The notes beneath the pieces are model-generated. The model was given only the letters and a program-made list of their open reading frames with translations, had not been told where the DNA came from and did no database searches. From Pirellulales bacterium (GTDB taxonomy: Bacteria > Planctomycetota > Planctomycetia > Pirellulales > JALHPA01), in the NCBI GenBank assembly GCA_033762255.1, contig JANRLT010000021.1, positions 124,001-188,000 of the forward strand: 64,000 bases of DNA, given 5' to 3'. Of this stretch, positions 3,704 through 61,272 are shown in pieces. Each line of letters opens with the position of its first letter. Within the stretch, counting starts at the first letter, position 1. The position numbers were made by a program, and so were the translations under genes.

Positions 3704-3800
3704 TATTCAAGATATTCCCTGGCTGACGCGGCGGGCTGAAAGATGCCCTGGCTGACGGGGCGGGCTAAATACTCCATCACAACGGACAGTGATGAGCACA

Positions 3801-4823
3801 TTATACTTCCAGTAGTTGATTCGCTTGCGACGAAAAGCGTTCGCGAATGGCAACAAACTGATCTTCGATTTCCAGAAACGCCGCGACGATCTCGGGGTCA
3901 AAGTGTGTCCCGGCTTCCTGCGTGATGATGGAGTTGGCCACCAACTGGTCAAAGGCGTCTTTATAACAACGCTTGCTGGTGAGCGCGTCGTACACATCCG
4001 CGAGCGCCACGATACGGCCACAAAGGGGTATTTCCTCCCCTTTCAGTCCCAAGGGATATCCGGTGCCGTCCCACCGTTCGTGATGGGTGGCGGCGATATC
4101 CCGGGCCACTCGCAAAAACCGCGCATCGGGAAATTTGATCAACGCCGCATCCAGGGTTTCGGCCCCTAACAGGGCGTGGGTTTTCATGATGGCGTATTCC
4201 TGGTCGTTGAGCCGACCTGGCTTGCGCAACACGCAATCCGGCACGCCCACCTTGCCAATGTCATGCAGCGGACTGGTCAAATAGATCAAGCGAATGTATT
4301 CGGCGTCGATTTCGTGGCGGTATTTGGGGTGGGTGGCCAGTTTTTCGGCCAAAACCCGGGAATAACACTGCACCCGTTCAAGATGGTGCCCCGTTTCGGG
4401 ATCTCGGGATTCGGCCAGTTTAGCCAGGGCAAAAATCGCGACTTCGCGCGTTTCCAGCGATAAGACCCGCTCCCCCGAACGAATCCGCACCAACAATTCC
4501 GGCGTATGAAACGGCTTGATGACAAAGTCGTCGGCGCCGGCGGACATTCCCTGGACGATCTCGTCGGACGCGGCGCGACTGGTCAGTAAGATCACATACA
4601 CATAACCGTCAAAGTCCCCCGCGCGGATGGCTTGGCAAAGCTGGATGCCGGTCATCTCGGGCATTTCCCAGTCCGAGATCACCAGCCGCGCCGCCCCGGC
4701 GCGCAGGAGTTCCAGCGCCTCCCGGCCATTATTGGCCGTGACCACGTCATAACCCGCCTTGATCAAGGTATGTTCCAATAACTCCAAGGCGATTTCGTCA
4801 TCGTCGGCAATCAAAATTCTCAT
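3801..4823 (-). CDS. Response regulator with HD-GYP c-di-GMP phosphodiesterase output
   Basis: 340 residues. The receiver domain (1-120) has the acidic pair DDD (7-9), phosphoacceptor Asp51, Thr81 and Lys103. The HD-GYP domain (about 125-330) keeps HDIGKVGVPD (187-196), His216, HHERWDGTGYP (247-257, with the GYP triad) and DVYDALTSKRCY, so hydrolysis of c-di-GMP is expected. The start ATG overlaps the stop of the upstream Amt-kinase gene by 4 nt (ATGA), indicating translational coupling and a cognate pair: the kinase's HPt domain is the natural phosphodonor. By inference this gives ammonium-dependent control of c-di-GMP. Soluble, cytoplasmic. No catalytic residue is missing. The domain calls are secure; the pairing is inferred from the overlap. 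Confidence 0.95.
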   Translation of the reverse strand: MRILIADDDEIALELLEHTLIKAGYDVVTANNGREALELLRAGAARLVISDWEMPEMTGIQLCQAIRAGDFDGYVYVILLTSRAASDEIVQGMSAGADDFVIKPFHTPELLVRIRSGERVLSLETREVAIFALAKLAESRDPETGHHLERVQCYSRVLAEKLATHPKYRHEIDAEYIRLIYLTSPLHDIGKVGVPDCVLRKPGRLNDQEYAIMKTHALLGAETLDAALIKFPDARFLRVARDIAATHHERWDGTGYPLGLKGEEIPLCGRIVALADVYDALTSKRCYKDAFDQLVANSIITQEAGTHFDPEIVAAFLEIEDQFVAIRERFSSQANQLLEV

Positions 4824-7800
4824 GATGGTGAATTTTCCAAAACTTGTCGCCCCTCGGTGTTATCCACCTGTAATATTTGCGCCAATTCCAGCAGGCACTC
4901 TTCAATGCGGGACTCTAATTCGGCCAGCGACTCCGGAGCCACGGCCAAATCCGCCGTGGCTAACGCGCTTTCCAGCGCGGCCGCCTGCGTTTGCACCGCC
5001 ACCGCCGCCAAATTTCCTGCCGCCCCTTTGAGCGTATGGGCCAGCTTGCGGGCCTGTTCAAAATTTCCCGCCTGCACGGCCGCCGTCAGCGCGGTCCGAT
5101 CAGCGGGGAGCCGTTGATGAAATTTTGTGAGCATTTTATGGGCAAATCTGGCATCCCCGCCACAACGCTCCAATAGCTGGGAAAAATCCAGCGTTGGGGC
5201 GCACGCCGCCGGTTGCGGCACATTTGCCAATACGGGGCCTACCGGTTGAGCGCTGGAGGACTCATTATTCGACGTTCCCCGTTGTTCGTTCCCTGCGATG
5301 GGGGCCGCGATCGCCCCCCCGCTCCCGGGGGTATTGATCCATTTGGCGATCGTGGACAGTAGCGCGCGGGGATCGATGGGCTTGGTAGCGTAATCATCCA
5401 TGCCGGCCTCTAGGCAATTTTCGCGATCACCGCGGACCGCGTTGGCGGTCAGGGCGATGACGGGAATTTTACCCCGGGAGCAATGGGGCAGGCTGGCGGT
5501 GGATTCCAGCCGGCGAATTTCTCCCGTCGCGGCAAAACCGTCCATTTCCGGCATTTGGCAATCCATCAAGACCAGGTCATATCCTCCCCGGGCCAGCGCG
5601 GCGAGCGCCTCCTTGCCATTACCAACAATGTCGCAAGAGTAACCAGCGCTGCGCAAAATTTCCCCCGTGACCTGTTGGTTGATCTCGTTATCATCCGCCA
5701 CCAGGATCTTTTTATTCTTTCCATGGGAGGGTATCGCGGCGACGGCCGGGGCCAGGCTGGCTGGATCCAGTTTGCCGGTGGGCTTGAGTAATTGCACCAC
5801 TTCATCCAACAAGCGCGATTGGCGAATCGGCTTGCTCATCACCCCTTCCAGGCCTTTTTCCCGCGCCGCGCCGCGGTCAATCTGCATATCGGCCGAAGTT
5901 AACATCAACAGCGGCGTCCGTTTTAGTTTGGGCACCGCTTTGATCCGCGCGGCCAGTTCCATGCCGTCCATTTCCGGCATTTGATGGTCCAAAATGACCA
6001 ACTGGTAGGGCTGGCTGGCTTCGAGCGCGGACTGCAGTTCGGCCACCGCCGCGCGCGGCTCGGCCAGGGTGGTGACCTGCAACCCCCATAGCCGCAATTG
6101 ATCGCGCAGGATTTCCAGATTGGTATTGGTGTCATCCACGGCGAGTACGCGCAGGCCGCGAATATCGGCCGGCGGCAGCGAGGAGACCGGCGTTTGGGAA
6201 GAGATAACCTCCATCGGCATATCCACAAAAAATGTTGATCCCCGGCCGTCGACGCTTTCCACGTCAATCCGACCCCCCATCAGCTCGACCAGTTGTTTGC
6301 AGATGGCCAGGCCCAGCCCGGTGCCGCCATATTTGCGAGTGGTGGAGGCGTCGACCTGGCTAAAGGCGTTGAATAAGCGATTGCGGCGGTCCGGTGGGAT
6401 CCCGATTCCGGTATCCTCCACCGCCAAGCGGACCAAAGCGCGATCCGCGCCTTGCTCAAGTACCGTGGCTTTCAGCCGAATTTCGCCGGATTCGGTAAAC
6501 TTTATCGCGTTGTTGCACAAATTAATAAGCACTTGCCGCAAGCGTTCGGGGTCGCCGCGGACGACCGGTGGGACGCCGGGCTGAATTTGGCAGATCAACT
6601 CCAGTTTTTTTTGCGCGGCGCGGTGCGAGAACATCTCGGCGATATCTTCTAACAACAACGGCAAGTCGTAGTTGACGATTTCCAGTTCCAGCTTGCCGGC
6701 TTCGATCTTGCTAAAGTCGAGCACATCATTGATCAGCCCCAAGAGCGTCCCCGCGGAAGACCGGGCGATCCGCGCATAGCGGGCCTGCCGCTCGTCCAGG
6801 GTGGTCGCGCAGAGCAACTCCAACATGCCAATGACCCCGTTGAGTGGGGTGCGGATTTCGTGGCTCATATTGGCCAAAAACGCGCTCTTGGCGGCGCTGG
6901 CGGCCAGAGCGGCGTCTTTTTCGGCTTGTAAATCGGCATTCCGTTTGCGCTCGGTGATGTCCTCGACGGTACCTTCGTAATATTGAATCTCTCCTTGCGC
7001 GTCGCGCACCGCGCGCGCGTTTTCCGAAATCCAAATCACCGATCCGTCCCGGCGATATACCTGCGACTCAAATTCCGTGACGATTCCCCGCTCTTCGATC
7101 AATTTGCGAAATTCCTCGCGGCGTTCATCCAGCACGTACAATTGCTTGCGAATATCGCATAACGATTGCATTAGCTCTTGTGGCGTATCATATCCATAAA
7201 TTTGGGCCAGCTTTGGATTGGCGCTCAGGTAAGTTCCCGCGGGCGTCGTCTGAAAAATACCTTCGACGGCATTCTCAAAAATTGATCGATACTTTTCCTC
7301 GGCCTGACGGGCTTGCTCGATGGCGATCTCCCTCGCGGCGATTTCGGCATTGACCCGCTCCAGCACGCGGTTGTACTCCGCGGCAATCTGGCCCACCTCG
7401 GTGTGAGGCTCGACTCGCACCCCTTGCGAGAAATTGCCACATAACCGCTGCTCATGCATGCTACCCAGCAATACCTGGATTTCACTCACCGCCCCATGCT
7501 CCGAGACATTCAGCCCTAGTTCTTCATGAGCGACACTGACGCGCAGCGGCCAAAAGCGGTTTACCAGCCAAAAGACCAGATAACTTAAGCCAAACGACCA
7601 GCCGGCACAGACCCCAATACCCAGTAACTGCACCAGGAATTGCTGGCCCCGCCCTCCGGCAATGCCAAAACTATCCTCAGGAGCAAAAATCGCCACCGCC
7701 AGCGTGCCCAGCATGCCGCACAAGCCATGCACCGGGAACGCCCCGACCACATCGTCAATTTTTAGCTTTTCCAGCGCATACGTCCCCCCCGCCGCCAAGG

Positions 7801-8686
7801 CCCCGGCTATTAGGCCAATCACCACCGCGCTTACCGGCGAGACCAAATGGCAACCCGCCGTCACCGCCACCAGTCCGGCAATCACGCCGTTCAGCGTCTG
7901 GCCGACATTTGGCAGCCGTTCGATCGACCAGGCCACGCCCAAGGCCGCCAATCCCCCCGCCGCGGCGGCCAGGTTGGTGTTTAGCAGAATCAGCGGTACT
8001 TTATCCGTCATCCCGAGCGCGCTGCCGCCATTAAATCCAAACCAGCCAAACCACAATAAGAACGTCCCCATGGTTGATAACACCAGGCTATGCCCATGCA
8101 TCGGCGCTTGTTGCTCCGCAAAGCGTCCTATTCGCGGCCCCAGCACTAAAATTAACGCCAGCGACACCCACCCTCCCACCGAATGCACGCAGGTCGAGCC
8201 CGCAAAGTCAATAAAACCCATTCGCGCCAGCCATCCCGTGGGCGTGCCGGTAATTGTGCCCCCCCAGGCCCAATGGCCAAAGATGGGATAAATCACCGCC
8301 GAGACAAATAAAGCCACGACCAGATAGGCGGAAAATCTAATTCGCTCGGCCGCCGCGCCCGAGATGATCGTGGTGGAGGTGCTACAAAACATGAGCTGAA
8401 ACAGGAACAACGTGAGGAACCACGGTGTGGCGGTTTCCCCCGGAAAAAAGTCGGTGGTCCCCACCAATCCATGCCAGCTTTGCCCAAACATGAGCGCGAA
8501 TCCAAACGCCCAAAACGCCAAGCCCGAGATGCAAAAATCGATTAGATTTTTGATGGCGACATTGATGCTGTTTTTTGCGCGGGAGAAACCCGTTTCTAAC
8601 AGACAAAATCCCCCCTGCATCAGCATGACCAGGGCCGAAGCGATTAAAACCCAAACCAGATCGGCGGCGGAGGGAGAGGCGGACAT
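4820..8686 (-). CDS. Ammonium transporter-like sensor fused to hybrid histidine kinase (Amt-PAS-HisKA-HATPase-REC-REC-HPt)
   Basis: 1288 residues. Residues 1-385 form an 11-helix Amt/Rh domain with both pore histidines (His168 in FAGSTCVHS, His320 in FPVHGLCG). A linker with a HAMP-like segment and coiled coil (about 400-465) and a PAS domain (466-582) follow. HisKA has the phosphorylatable His609 ([15 protein letters not shown]). The HATPase keeps its N box (NLCNNAIKF), DTGIGIPP and GGTGLGL. Receiver 1 has Asp900 ([13 protein letters not shown]), receiver 2 has Asp1042 ([13 protein letters not shown]), and the HPt domain has His1217 ([11 protein letters not shown]). All phosphotransfer residues are intact. 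Amt-kinase fusions are known as ammonium sensors (Kuenenia Ks-Amt5); this one adds PAS, two receivers and HPt. It acts at the cytoplasmic membrane. The downstream HD-GYP regulator overlaps by 4 nt. Confidence 0.97.
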
Positions 8687-25105: not shown

Positions 25106-25471
25106 ATGCCCCCATCCTCCCGAATTTTGATCGTGGATGCTTCGCCGGATAACCGGCAAGTCTTGCGGACGGCGTTGGAAAAGCGGGGGATCGAAATTTT
25201 GGAAGCCGCGCGGACCAGGCAAGGTTTGGCGCTTGCGCAAACCGCCCGGCCAGACCTGGTGATCTGGAACCTGGAAGATAGCCCTCCGAACACGGCGGCA
25301 GTCACCGATGAAGTGCTGCGGCAAACGCCCGCCAGCACGGAATTGGTCTTTTTAGGCGGGGTTGGGCGTCCCGTCGCGCATGCACGCAGCGCGTTTGTGC
25401 CGCAACCCTACCATTATCCTCGATTGATCTCTACAATCGAACACATGTTATCAGCCCGTCGCGCGGCATGA
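25106..25471 (+). CDS. Degenerate (pseudo-) receiver domain protein
   Basis: 121 residues, a single CheY-like fold with no output domain: RILIVDASPDNRQVLRTALE is the first strand and helix, PDLVIWNLEDSP the third strand. The phosphoacceptor position reads Asn55 instead of Asp, the acidic pair is reduced to one Asp (Asp11), and the conserved Lys is a Gln (FVPQPY). Phosphorylation is therefore not expected. It could act as a constitutive or protein-binding receiver. The FHA-GAF histidine kinase follows 216 nt downstream on the same strand, separated by hairpin repeats, so co-regulation is uncertain. ATG 25106 has AGG about 5 nt upstream. Confidence 0.85.
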   Translation: MPPSSRILIVDASPDNRQVLRTALEKRGIEILEAARTRQGLALAQTARPDLVIWNLEDSPPNTAAVTDEVLRQTPASTELVFLGGVGRPVAHARSAFVPQPYHYPRLISTIEHMLSARRAA

Positions 25472-25640
25472 TATGTACTCATCTCACTCCGTGAGATGTC
25501 ATATCGTACTCATCTCACTCCGTGAGATGGATTACACCCATAACAACCACACCTTGTTGACATAACTCCATATAGCAGCCGGTTCCTACGTTACCCGCAC
25601 GTTATTGCGGTTATTGTTCCTCTCACGGAGTCAAGAGGAC
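25471..25640. repeat. REP-like hairpin elements (two direct copies and one inverted degenerate copy)
   Basis: CATCTCACTCCGTGAGATG occurs at 25480-25498 and 25511-25529, each an 8-bp perfect stem with a TCC loop and each preceded by a GTACT tract. A degenerate inverted relative (CCTCTCACGGAGTCAAGAGG, 25619-25638) closes the block. The first copy begins directly after the stop codon of the receiver gene. Related elements occur at 28.64 and 47.8 kb. The 216-nt gap holds nothing else that I recognise. Confidence 0.8.
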
Positions 25641-27626: not shown

Positions 27627-28634
27627 ATGTTACCCACTCAATCAACAATGGAAATGCGTCCCTTTGGCAAAAGCGGCATCCAGGTTTCGGGAATCGGGAT
27701 CGGCACCTGGCAAATTGGAGGCCAATGGGGACCGGAGTTTACCGATGAAACGGCACTGGAGATTTTGCGCGCCGCCGCGGACCAGGGCGTAACCTTTATC
27801 GATACGGCCGATATTTATGGGCTAGGGCGCAGCGAAACCGTCATTGGTAAATTTCTGCGCGAAAATCGGGGCAACTTTTTTGTCGCGACCAAACTTGGCC
27901 GCAATCCCCATCCCGGTTGGCCGCACAACTTTACCCCCCGCGTCATTCGCGAACATACTGAAAATTCGCTATTGAATCTGGGGGTCGATTGCCTGGACCT
28001 GACCCAGTTGCATTGCGTTCCGCAGGAAGAGCTGGAATCGGGCGTGGTGTTTGAAGCGCTGGAGGATCTCAAACAAGCGGGCAAGATTCGCAATTACGGC
28101 GCCAGCGTGGAAAGCATGGAAGAAGCCCTCATTTGCCTGCGATATCCCGGTTGTGCCTCGCTGCAGATTATTTTTAACATCTTTCGCCAAAAACCGATTA
28201 GCACGCTTTTTGACCAGGCCCAACGACAGGGGGTCGCCATTATTGTCCGGTTGCCGCTGGCTAGCGGGCTGCTCTCGGGCAAGATGACCAAAGATCGCGT
28301 CTTTGACGAAAATGACCATCGCAATTACAACCGCGATGGACAGCAATTTAACGTGGGGGAGACCTTTGCCGGGCTCCCCTATGAGGCGGGCGTGGATCTA
28401 GCGAATCAAGTGGCGGCTCTGGTTCCTCCGGGCATGACCATGACACAAATGGCGTTACGGTGGTGTCTGGACTTTGACGCGGTAACCACCGTTATCCCCG
28501 GTGCCCGCAGCCCCGAACAAGCCATCGAAAATAGCCAGGCAGGCCATTTGCCGCGCTTGCCCAGTCCGCTGCATGATCGCCTGGCCGCGCTGTACCATAC
28601 CGAGGTCGAGCCCCTCATCCGAGGCAAATACTAA
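27627..28634 (+). CDS. Aldo/keto reductase
   Basis: 335 residues, TIM barrel, NADPH-dependent carbonyl reductase. EMRPFGKSGIQVSGIGIGTW opens the barrel. The catalytic Asp and Tyr lie in FIDTADIYGLGRSE, Lys in FVATKLGRNPHP and His in TQLHCVPQEE, so the tetrad is complete. VTTVIPGARSPEQAIENSQA is the cofactor-binding end typical of the YajO/perakine-reductase-like group. Start: ATG 27627; ATG 27648 and 27654 are alternatives. It lies between the FHA kinase and tatD, with hairpin repeats after its stop codon. Substrate unknown. Confidence 0.94.
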   Translation: MLPTQSTMEMRPFGKSGIQVSGIGIGTWQIGGQWGPEFTDETALEILRAAADQGVTFIDTADIYGLGRSETVIGKFLRENRGNFFVATKLGRNPHPGWPHNFTPRVIREHTENSLLNLGVDCLDLTQLHCVPQEELESGVVFEALEDLKQAGKIRNYGASVESMEEALICLRYPGCASLQIIFNIFRQKPISTLFDQAQRQGVAIIVRLPLASGLLSGKMTKDRVFDENDHRNYNRDGQQFNVGETFAGLPYEAGVDLANQVAALVPPGMTMTQMALRWCLDFDAVTTVIPGARSPEQAIENSQAGHLPRLPSPLHDRLAALYHTEVEPLIRGKY

Positions 28635-28637
28635 CCC

Positions 28638-28722
28638 ATACTCTTCACAGTCCCTGTGAAGTTATAATGTACTCTTCACAGTCTCCGTGAAGTCAAAATA
28701 AAACTCTTCACAATCCCTGCAG
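28638..28722. repeat. REP-like hairpin elements (three tandem copies)
   Basis: CTTCACAGTCCCTGTGAAG (28643-28661) is a perfect 8-bp stem with a TCC loop. Copies at 28674-28692 (CTTCACAGTCTCCGTGAAG) and 28706-28722 are progressively degenerate. Each is preceded by TACTCTT or AACTCTT. The loop and lead-in match the 25.5-kb elements while the stem differs on both sides. Confidence 0.75.
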
Positions 28723-28811
28723 CATCCCACATCACAAGCTACGGTATTCCCATTTTTTGCGGAAATTTGCCAGATTGATTTTTGCTGAGTATCAGAGGAT
28801 GGACGTGGTTT

Positions 28812-47796: not shown

Positions 47797-47890
47797 AATG
47801 TACTCATCACACTCCCGTGTGATCAATTCTGCCGTTGCGACTAGCTCCCCCAACAAAACACTAATGTTCCTCTCACGGAGTGAGAGGAGC
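47797..47890. repeat. REP-like hairpin pair, inverted relative to each other
   Basis: ATCACACTCCCGTGTGAT (47806-47823) is a 7-bp stem with a TCCC loop, preceded by TGTACTC. CCTCTCACGGAGTGAGAGG (47869-47887) is a perfect 8-bp stem with GGA loop, the reverse-orientation form, with the same TCTCACTCCGTGAGA core as the 25.5-kb copies once complemented. The pair fills most of the gap between the Cof-type and MazG-like genes. Confidence 0.8.
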
Positions 47891-47903
47891 ACACTACCCA
47901 ATT

Positions 47904-48767
47904 TTACGCAAATCCCCCCTCCCCTAATAGCCAATCCACCACCTGCAACAATCCCTCGTCGGTGTTTTTTCCCGTCACCCGCGACGCCTGGGCACGCACA
48001 TCGGGGGGGGCATTTCCCATTGCCACGCCCAATCCCGCCTGGGTGAGCATGGGCAGGTCATTCACATCGTCCCCAACTGCGCAAATTTGTGCGGGAGAAA
48101 GTTGCAATTGGCGGGCAACGTATTGGACCCCGCTCCATTTGCTGACGCCAGCGGGGGCGATTTCGCACATATATCCGAAATAGCGGGGGCTGCGAATGAC
48201 ATGCACATACAATTCTCCCGGCCACAAACGCTCCAGGTTGGCGGCCAAATCCCGCATTTCATCCGCCGTCCCCATGACGAATCCGGCAAAGACGTCTGCG
48301 GGGGGGGACGTCATCAGGTCGGGCGAAAGCCGGATGGAATCGGCGTTCAACGACAAAAACTCCGCCAACTCCGGCGATTTCGCCCGCGCTTCGGCCAGAT
48401 GAAAATCGTACCCCAGCCCAAAGCTATCGGTATACAAAATCGGCTGAAAACCGCGGTCATGGACATACGCCAACAGCGGCAGCAGCACGGCGGGACGAAT
48501 CTGGGCTTGAAATAAGGTTTCGTGTGTGGCGGGAGATTTAATCAGCGCCCCGCTGGCGGTCACCAGCGGCAAATGCAGGTTCAACCGCCTGGCAATCGGC
48601 AGCGCGCGGCTATACCGCCGTCCCGTGCAAAGCATGATCTCCACCCCCCGCGCTTGGGCCTTCGCCAGCGCGGCTAAAGTGCGCTCGCCAATTTTATCCC
48701 CCAAATCGACCAGCGTGCCGTCTATGTCGAGGGCTAACAGGCGGTAAAAAGGGGGGGACGAAGGCAT
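47904..48767 (-). CDS. HAD-IIB (Cof-type) phosphatase
   Basis: 287 residues from ATG 48767 (an in-frame ATG at 48776 is 3 codons upstream). Motif I is LLALDIDGTLVD with the nucleophile Asp and the acid/base Asp. Motif II is LCTGRRYSRA, motif III the Lys in GVSKWSGVQYVARQL, motif IV AVGDDVNDLPMLTQAGLGVA. The large alpha/beta cap between motifs II and III places it in subclass IIB, which dephosphorylates sugar phosphates, flavin or thiamine intermediates. All catalytic residues are present. Substrate unknown. Alone on the minus strand, upstream of MazG. Confidence 0.95.
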   Translation of the reverse strand: MPSSPPFYRLLALDIDGTLVDLGDKIGERTLAALAKAQARGVEIMLCTGRRYSRALPIARRLNLHLPLVTASGALIKSPATHETLFQAQIRPAVLLPLLAYVHDRGFQPILYTDSFGLGYDFHLAEARAKSPELAEFLSLNADSIRLSPDLMTSPPADVFAGFVMGTADEMRDLAANLERLWPGELYVHVIRSPRYFGYMCEIAPAGVSKWSGVQYVARQLQLSPAQICAVGDDVNDLPMLTQAGLGVAMGNAPPDVRAQASRVTGKNTDEGLLQVVDWLLGEGGFA

Positions 48768-48953
48768 AAAGACCACAGGTAACGGTTTATTCCACCAGAA
48801 AAAATAGAGTCAAATCGGGATGTCAACGGTAACAAGGAAATACAAACAACAGGCGGCGGTACGCACCCTCGGGCAACGCTCCGCTAGCACAAAACGCGGG
48901 AAATTTGCGATTTCCCCTTATCAAAAGTTGTTGATGGCTTTTATATTATGGTT

Positions 48954-57059: not shown

Positions 57060-57811
57060 TTTGTAAAAACGCTTGACGAATTCCAACATGTTCCGTATAG
57101 TCACCTGCATGATCCGCCGGGTTGGTGGTCGGGTTGCGTTGTTCGCACTCGACAAACAAGGGAACTGTGGTCGGGTGGGTTGGATAATTCACGTCGCATT
57201 CGATATTTTTTCGCGTTTGCGATCAGGCTTAGCCACTTCCGCCTTATTCCGCGACGGCCCCGCCGCTGTGATCGGGTAAGTATGGATTTGTCGGGGATTC
57301 TTGGCTCCATATCTTGGCAGCCACGAGTTATCGGCACCATCCACACACTGAACGGCCTCTCTGTTTGTGGCCATTGCGTTGGTTGTTGTGAGTAATCACA
57401 AATACCATTTGCGCGAGAAGGCCCTGGCTGTTTTGCCCGTAAGTCAGAAGACCTACCAACACGGTTCGAACGCGACTTCACGAGGGTCTGAAGTCTGTTC
57501 GGGTTTGTCGGTAATGATCTTAGAGTCGATGGCATTCTTGGATTAGCCGGCAATCTTTACTCAAAGGGACGCTAATCGCGCTTCACGTTTCGTCGCCAGC
57601 CCCCCGCTGCGCGCTACGGATGAAAATGCCAGCCCCGGACTGCGTTTAACGTATTTCCGTGTCCCGCAAAATTCCTCCATAGCCTCCGGCGCGAGGTCCG
57701 CGTAAAACGTGCGCGCCTGCGTTAAATGGAATGCCCCCGCGACCTGCCCACCAACCGGGATGCGCCCCTGCGCCGGGCCGCGCTTTCCCCACCGCCACGC
57801 CTCCGCGGGGC
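57060..57811. other. Intergenic region with no convincing gene
   Basis: About 750 nt. Frames of up to 150 codons exist on both strands but show no domain, low-complexity composition and no ribosome-binding site. The sequence may hold decayed gene remnants. The promoter of the DUF1559 gene should be at its right end. Confidence 0.45.
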
Positions 57812-61136: not shown

Positions 61137-61272
61137 TTCGGGCTGAAGCCCGAACTATGCCTATCCGTGGCAATGAATTTCTCGCGCCTGTCCCGTCCGG
61201 CGGACGGGACCTACCCACTCCACGGCACCGGGACGGTGCCTACTACAATCTCTACGGCACCGGGACGGTGCC
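61137..61272. repeat. Cluster of four small perfect hairpins upstream of the methyltransferase
   Basis: TTCGGGCTGAAGCCCGAA (61137-61154); GTCCCGTCC/GGACGGGAC around GGC (61190-61210); GGCACCGGGACGGTGCC twice (61224-61240 and 61256-61272), each with a GGA loop and each followed by TACTACAA. The last hairpin ends 11 nt before the methyltransferase ATG, so it would sit in the leader or the initiation region of its mRNA. Confidence 0.75.

Follow-up and report, generated by a model that had tools for sequence, protein, structure and literature searches.

The short hairpins that recur in the 64-kb stretch of DNA analysed here (hereafter the window) belong to a REP/BIME family, an identification that we regard as firm. 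The full reading, in which a REP-associated tyrosine transposase (RAYT) of a Planctomycetota clade once dispersed this REP/BIME family, is very probable, and the past spread by a RAYT is, as judged from sequence comparison, well supported. The observations on which the REP/BIME reading is based are the copy number, the palindrome, the covariation of its stem, the BIME geometry, the extragenic location and the presence of hairpin-flanked RAYT genes in related genomes. The repeat is a short palindrome that would fold as a single strand, with a GTNN tag at the foot of the hairpin and a TCC loop.

A scan of the window with R1, a 27-position covariance model whose seeds came from the window and from the genome, returned seven copies of one hairpin family, six of them good and one weak. 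Inspection of three loci and a scan for perfect stems recovered the hairpins that an earlier, sequence-only reading had described near 25.5, 28.6 and 47.8 kb. At the first locus, the copy at 25472–25498 (+; tag GTAC; stem CATCTCAC/GTGAGATG; loop TCC; R1 41.4 bits) begins immediately 3' of the TGA stop (25469–25471) of a response-regulator ORF (25106–25471, with a Response_reg domain match). The copy at 25503–25529 (+; 40.3 bits) is its direct repeat, 31 nt downstream. A degenerate inverted copy whose stem is disrupted, recognized from the sequence, lies at about 25621–25640 (–; CCTCTCACGGAGTCAAGAGGA); R1 did not report it in the window scan. At the second locus, the copy at 28635–28661 (+; head CCATACTC; stem CTTCACAG/CTGTGAAG; 33.7 bits) begins immediately 3' of the TAA stop of an aldo/keto reductase ORF (27627–28634; Aldo_ket_red domain match) and is followed 31 nt downstream by a tandem repeat at 28666–28692 (+; tag GTAC; 36.7 bits). 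The third locus is a tail-to-tail doublet. Its left arm lies at 47797–47824 (+; tag GTAC; stem ATCACAC/GTGTGAT; loop TCCC; 34.9 bits), and its right arm, at 47869–47895 (–; tag GTGC; stem TCCTCTCAC/GTGAGAGGA; 39.7 bits), follows the stop of a HAD-type hydrolase gene (47904–48776, –; Hydrolase_3 domain match) at a distance of 8 nt. The weak copy, at 3775–3802 (–; tag GTGC; imperfect stem; 21.0 bits, E 0.0039), overlaps the TAA stop of a minus-strand ORF ending at 3801. The R1 E-values of the six good copies (4.5e-08 to 3.4e-06) are a measure of fit and not independent proof, as five of the six are seeds or near-identical to seeds.

The arrangement of these copies departs in part from the earlier description. 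The pairing of a forward with an inverted copy holds for the doublet at 47.8 kb, but at 25.5 kb the inverted partner is the degenerate one and the good copies form a direct repeat. The 28.6-kb block is tandem, as had been proposed, with respect to its two good copies, but the third (28702–28731, +) is decayed, with 60% identity to the first. None of these hairpins was matched in an Rfam scan of the window. The same scan returned a cobalamin riboswitch at 57106–57474 (+), which scored 39.9 bits where the gathering score is 31.5. The window also contains a 1288-aa ORF (4820–8686, –) that fuses an ammonium transporter, PAS, a histidine kinase, and two receiver and Hpt domains. Two further hairpins, TTGTAGTA-GGCACCG-TCC-CGGTGCC, are found 32 nt apart at 61224–61240 and 61256–61272 (–); they probably represent another REP family, which carries a GTAG tag and shares the TCC loop.

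The palindromes could be a product of chance or of base composition. We compared the window with 60 dinucleotide-preserving shuffles. Hairpins of this size are frequent, which speaks for chance: the window has 14 with a stem of at least 7 bp and any 3-nt loop, whereas the shuffles averaged 5.9 and reached 15 at most. The restriction to perfect hairpins with a TCC or GGA loop changed the outcome, with six in the window against a mean of 0.22 (maximum 2), and the TACTC-led members of this set numbered three against none in each of the shuffles. In the genome (an assembly of 5.47 Mb in 72 contigs, 96.6% complete), R1 gave 115 matches at E≤10, the best at E 8.1e-7; under the stricter limit of E≤0.01 there were 81. 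An independent pattern, with GT fixed and tag positions 3–4 free, had 73 matches against one for its reversed control. A looser pattern, allowing two mismatches, performed no better than its control (16 versus 18) and served only to find seeds. The genome counts thus refute chance, to which we assign a negligible probability. The sequence-only reading had suggested a genome-wide search, and had held absence of copies from the rest of the genome to be fatal to its REP-like interpretation; copies are abundant outside the window.

We aligned the 108 copies of the genome found at E≤0.05. Their consensus is AATGTnnTC-[NNCNCAS]-TCC-[stem']-GA, and sequence conservation stops approximately 2 nt beyond the element. 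The TACTC lead-in, earlier taken as invariant, varies across the genome: it is the most frequent version of GTnnTC, in which GT is present in 106/108 copies, T in 97/108 and C in 105/108, the two intervening bases being variable. The near-constancy of the TCC loop is borne out (100/108). The stem is of 8 bp, and 95.2% of its cells are paired in the 108 copies. Its covariation score was 0.346, compared to a shuffled mean of 0.085, and none of 500 shuffles scored as high; these values are to be read with R1 having been built on GTACTC seeds, the alignment having been fitted to the R1 structure, and kinship within subfamilies inflating the covariation cell counts. Controls in slid registers reached 0.11 at most, and the first seed alignment, made by MAFFT, gave the same picture. 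The variation is mainly at three stem positions, with compensating changes in the partners. The joint change of both sides of the stem, inferred initially from a handful of hairpins, therefore stands, as the stems covary well above both the shuffled and the slid controls.

Of the order's 296 genomes, 18 had matches to R1 at E≤0.001, dispersed over families, and 49 of the 57 genomes in the relatives search gave zero R1 matches. A scan of named genomes identified 38 loci whose RAYTs belong to the clade invoked here, nearly all in Planctomycetota. In genome G266, an uncultured Pirellulaceae bacterium, a 219-aa RAYT (L247, contig C16) has R1 matches on both sides, one of them being GTACTCATCACACTCCGTGTGATG. 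In G089 (L248, contig C154), a 221-aa RAYT is surrounded by GTACTC and GTATCC copies, and in G024 (L130) a 206-aa RAYT has doublets on both sides, GTAG-tagged at 3' and degenerate at 5'. With the same repeat on both sides of the RAYT, the three loci constitute complete REPtrons. Among RAYT loci with detectable hairpins, most have TCC loops; the tags are mostly GTAG, with some GTAC, GTAT, GTCG and GTGG. The proteins carry the HUH (PNHVH) and YIxxNP motifs. Their core is matched by NCBIfam REP_Tyr_transpos with a score below the cut-off, the match to Pfam Y1_Tnp is marginal, and that to E. coli TnpAREP (PDB 4er8) is weak (E 0.015).

The arrangement of the copies in the genome is that of BIMEs. 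The 115 copies fall into 60 clusters, 28 of which are single. Tail-to-tail neighbours (23) are mostly separated by 87–103 nt, head-to-head neighbours (12) mostly by 24 nt, and direct neighbours (20) mostly by 29–38 nt. The regular spacing of the tail-to-tail and head-to-head neighbours genome-wide bears out the comparison with BIME units that had been drawn from the window. Paired copies often mix two stem types, CTCTCAC and ATCACAC, and alternating arrays with units of 113–117 nt are seen at C70:34368/34485 and C70:71981/72094. The tail-to-tail pairs resemble an element of 115–120 nt with inverted ends, as would be expected of MITEs moved by a DDE transposase, with the paired hairpins as their terminal inverted repeats. 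In G144 and G212 (L201, L202, L211, L212), and similarly in G063 (L213), REP doublets do lie within a longer element whose ends (AGGACCGGCGAATCAATAA) are inverted, which speaks for such an origin. The common occurrence of single and direct-tandem copies argues against it, as does the stop of conservation so close to the hairpin, and in relatives the repeat brackets a gene for a Y1/HUH RAYT and not for a DDE transposase. We consider MITEs a very improbable source of the family. The AGGACCGGCGAATCAATAA-bounded element, which in G144 shows many identical model scores among its doublets, is perhaps a MITE carrying a REP doublet.

The relationship of the copies to genes is pronounced. In a sequence of which approximately 80% is predicted coding, by home-made gene calls with the window as training set, 109 of the 115 copies lie outside predicted genes, and gaps between divergent genes hold only four of the 60 clusters. 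Among the 73 gene ends facing a copy, the copy lies within 4 nt in 23, all in the sense orientation and none antisense, and within 30 nt in 37 sense cases versus one antisense, a statistic that depends on these home-made calls. Random placement in the same gaps (2000 trials) gave a mean of 4.5 (maximum 10) sense copies within 4 nt and of 13.7 (maximum 23) within 30 nt. The stop codon lies within the head itself, as TAATGT or TAGTGT, in several cases, and the two tandem blocks of the window, at 25.5 and 28.6 kb, both begin directly after a stop codon. In relatives, a cruder stop-codon test revealed at most a weak tendency. The placement could reflect a preference at insertion, tolerance of copies at such sites, or selection for a hairpin at the mRNA 3' end, and that the repeat has a role at stop codons is something that we infer. 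According to work cited in PMC12306157, E. coli REPs stall ribosomes when they lie no more than 15 nt from a stop codon. The stop placement observed here offers a second, independent lineage in which to ask the question posed for E. coli, whether REPs act on translation termination.

This placement also favors an account in which the hairpins are structured RNA elements or terminators, each selected independently at its site without a transposase. The covariation of the stem and the predicted stability of the RNA hairpins (–8 to –13 kcal/mol) are in keeping with it. The hairpins are rejected as terminators: they have no T-tract behind them, and terminator scans of the three loci selected none. 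The fixed spacing of the head-to-head and tail-to-tail units, the conserved tag and loop, and the repeat-flanked RAYTs require common descent by copying, and the REPtrons in relatives weigh heavily against an origin that is wholly independent at each site. We deem independent selection improbable as the origin of the family, if slightly less so than the MITE account. Because selection may act on copies after their spread, it is in part complementary to the RAYT reading. The earlier text had left a choice between selection on structure and a REP-associated transposase; the transposase origin is supported, and the placement at stop codons suggests further selection afterwards.

The RAYT anticipated by the sequence-only reading was found in related genomes, with the repeat on both sides, but no intact RAYT flanked by this GTNN/TCC repeat was found in the present genome at 96.6% completeness in 72 contigs. 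The genome has ten Y1_Tnp matches and further RAYT pieces. One REP copy lies approximately 4.5 kb from a Y1_Tnp gene (L115) and was judged unassociated. Other palindromes flank the RAYT matches on contigs C65 (GTAGCGGCGAGG..CCTCGCC), C35 (GGTACCCCAGGAAC..GTTCCTGGG) and C30/C61 (GTAGCAGGCACGGTCCCCGTGCC). The segments C30:86292–86666 and C61:1–640 (L189 and L190) are parts of one RAYT gene, broken, with its halves at two contig ends. Each part adjoins insertion-sequence-like DNA, amid GTAGCAGGCACGGTCCCCGTGCC and CGACATCGTCCCGATGTCG hairpins, and the two are probably a disrupted REPtron of another REP family. A RAYT on C35 around 11657 (L011 and L117) lies between long repeats CCGGGTACCCCAGGAACTTGTTCCTGGGCGGCGCAGCCGCAAGAAGC; this locus resembles a TIRtron. 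As the genome is seemingly without an intact repeat-flanked RAYT, the family may be immobile there now. A RAYT beside its own repeat is common in REP-bearing genomes but not universal, and the loss of REPtrons from species that keep their REPs is documented (PMC3733652).

The RAYT reading can be put in mechanistic terms. A RAYT binds its repeat in folded, single-stranded form and cleaves close by, and group 3 enzymes depend critically on the bases of the loop (PMC8266576). The RAYT of the present clade, an HUH/Y1 single-strand endonuclease, would bind the TCC-loop hairpin and would use the GTNN tag as a guide; the constant TCC loop and GT appear to fit recognition by this clade. The elements would be copied via single-strand transfer by the RAYT. 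Many copies may later have been retained behind stop codons, where a hairpin at the mRNA 3' end could influence RNA decay or the termination of translation. If the RAYT was lost or disrupted in the present genome, a resident repeat population would remain.

The tag deserves separate consideration. Among the 73 pattern matches of the genome, GTAC accounts for 29, GTAG for nine and GTGG for one. In G138, 42 of 46 copies are GTAC, and this nearly pure population indicates that GTAC is not merely a product of decay. In G033, GTAC copies are found alongside a GTAG family with a GGCACAC stem, and GTAC-tagged copies flank the RAYTs L259 and L262 in relatives. Known enzymes prefer GTAG (PMC8266576), and for one group 3 RAYT in vitro the tag guides the choice of the cleavage dinucleotide, CT/CA with GTAG and GT/GA with GTAC (PMC8266576). 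We related the flanking dinucleotides to the tag by five rules in a guide-target test, none of which was significant (best max-stat p 0.10). Tag base 3 was weakly linked to position –4 of the upstream flank (max-stat p 0.03, duplicates removed; alignment A4 of the present genome), C going with pyrimidine and G with purine. The direction of this link is a misfit to base pairing, and we claim no mechanism for it. As a marker of RAYT lineage the tag was discarded, for L259 and L262 did not group on the RAYT tree, many forks of which are unresolved. The residues that contact the tag in E. coli, WQ....(E/D)H..R, are identical in L259, L262 and the GTAG-flanked RAYTs in an alignment by eye, and so do not account for the change of tag. 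A more speculative and, in our estimate, rather unlikely proposal combines two elements: that tag positions 3–4 have been naturally diversified, giving one hairpin with many guides for RAYTs that cut other sites, and that the immobile copies of the present genome are kept as sense hairpins at stops, controlling translation termination. The GTAC-tagged loci L259 and L262, with G138, are natural material for the testing of the tag as a programmable guide.

The family documented here is a Planctomycetota REP family that keeps GT and the TCC loop constant but deviates from the GTAG tag. A GTAG REP superfamily has been reported also in Planctomycetes, including Rhodopirellula baltica (PMC3733652). 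It is alike in phylum, in size and in having several families per genome, and the G024 locus and most RAYT loci do carry GTAG. The superfamily tag, GT[AG]G in PMC6006769, is present in 10 of our 73 copies, and the family is therefore not placed in that superfamily. The CGTC end tag of a second superfamily (PMC3733652) differs from the GTNN tags here. A limited literature search found no natural GTAC-tagged family, the comparison being exclusive of the R. baltica consensus sequences of PMC3733652, and the novelty of the exact repeat sequence is unproven. Class 3 of TnpAY1 (PMC6006769), which belongs to Planctomycetes and Acidobacteria, shares the Y1 transposase, the high-copy hairpins and the phylum, but its foot is CnGA and its motif Y....EQ, as opposed to the GTNN foot of the repeat and the YIxxNP motif of the RAYTs here. 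Pseudomonas REPINs (PMC3116915) are alike in having an inverted REP pair as the unit and a RAYT in related genomes, whereas many copies here are single or in direct tandem and the two arms are often of different stem types.

The closest counterparts are the REP/BIME and REPtron systems of E. coli and Stenotrophomonas (PMC2817692, PMC6006769, PMC8266576). The differences are the GTNN tag, mostly GTAC, instead of GTAG, the TCC loop in place of the GCT of the S. maltophilia REP, the frequent direct tandem copies at 29–38 nt, and the failure to find an intact RAYT beside the repeat in the present genome. The systems are alike in their high-copy extragenic palindromes, the tetranucleotide tag at the foot and the BIME geometry, and the perfect 8-bp stem with a 3-nt loop resembles the group 3 REPs of S. 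maltophilia. Their RAYTs are flanked by the repeat, as in the relatives of the present genome. In E. coli, according to PMC12306157, a portion of the REP copies lies within 15 nt of stop codons, as is the case here.
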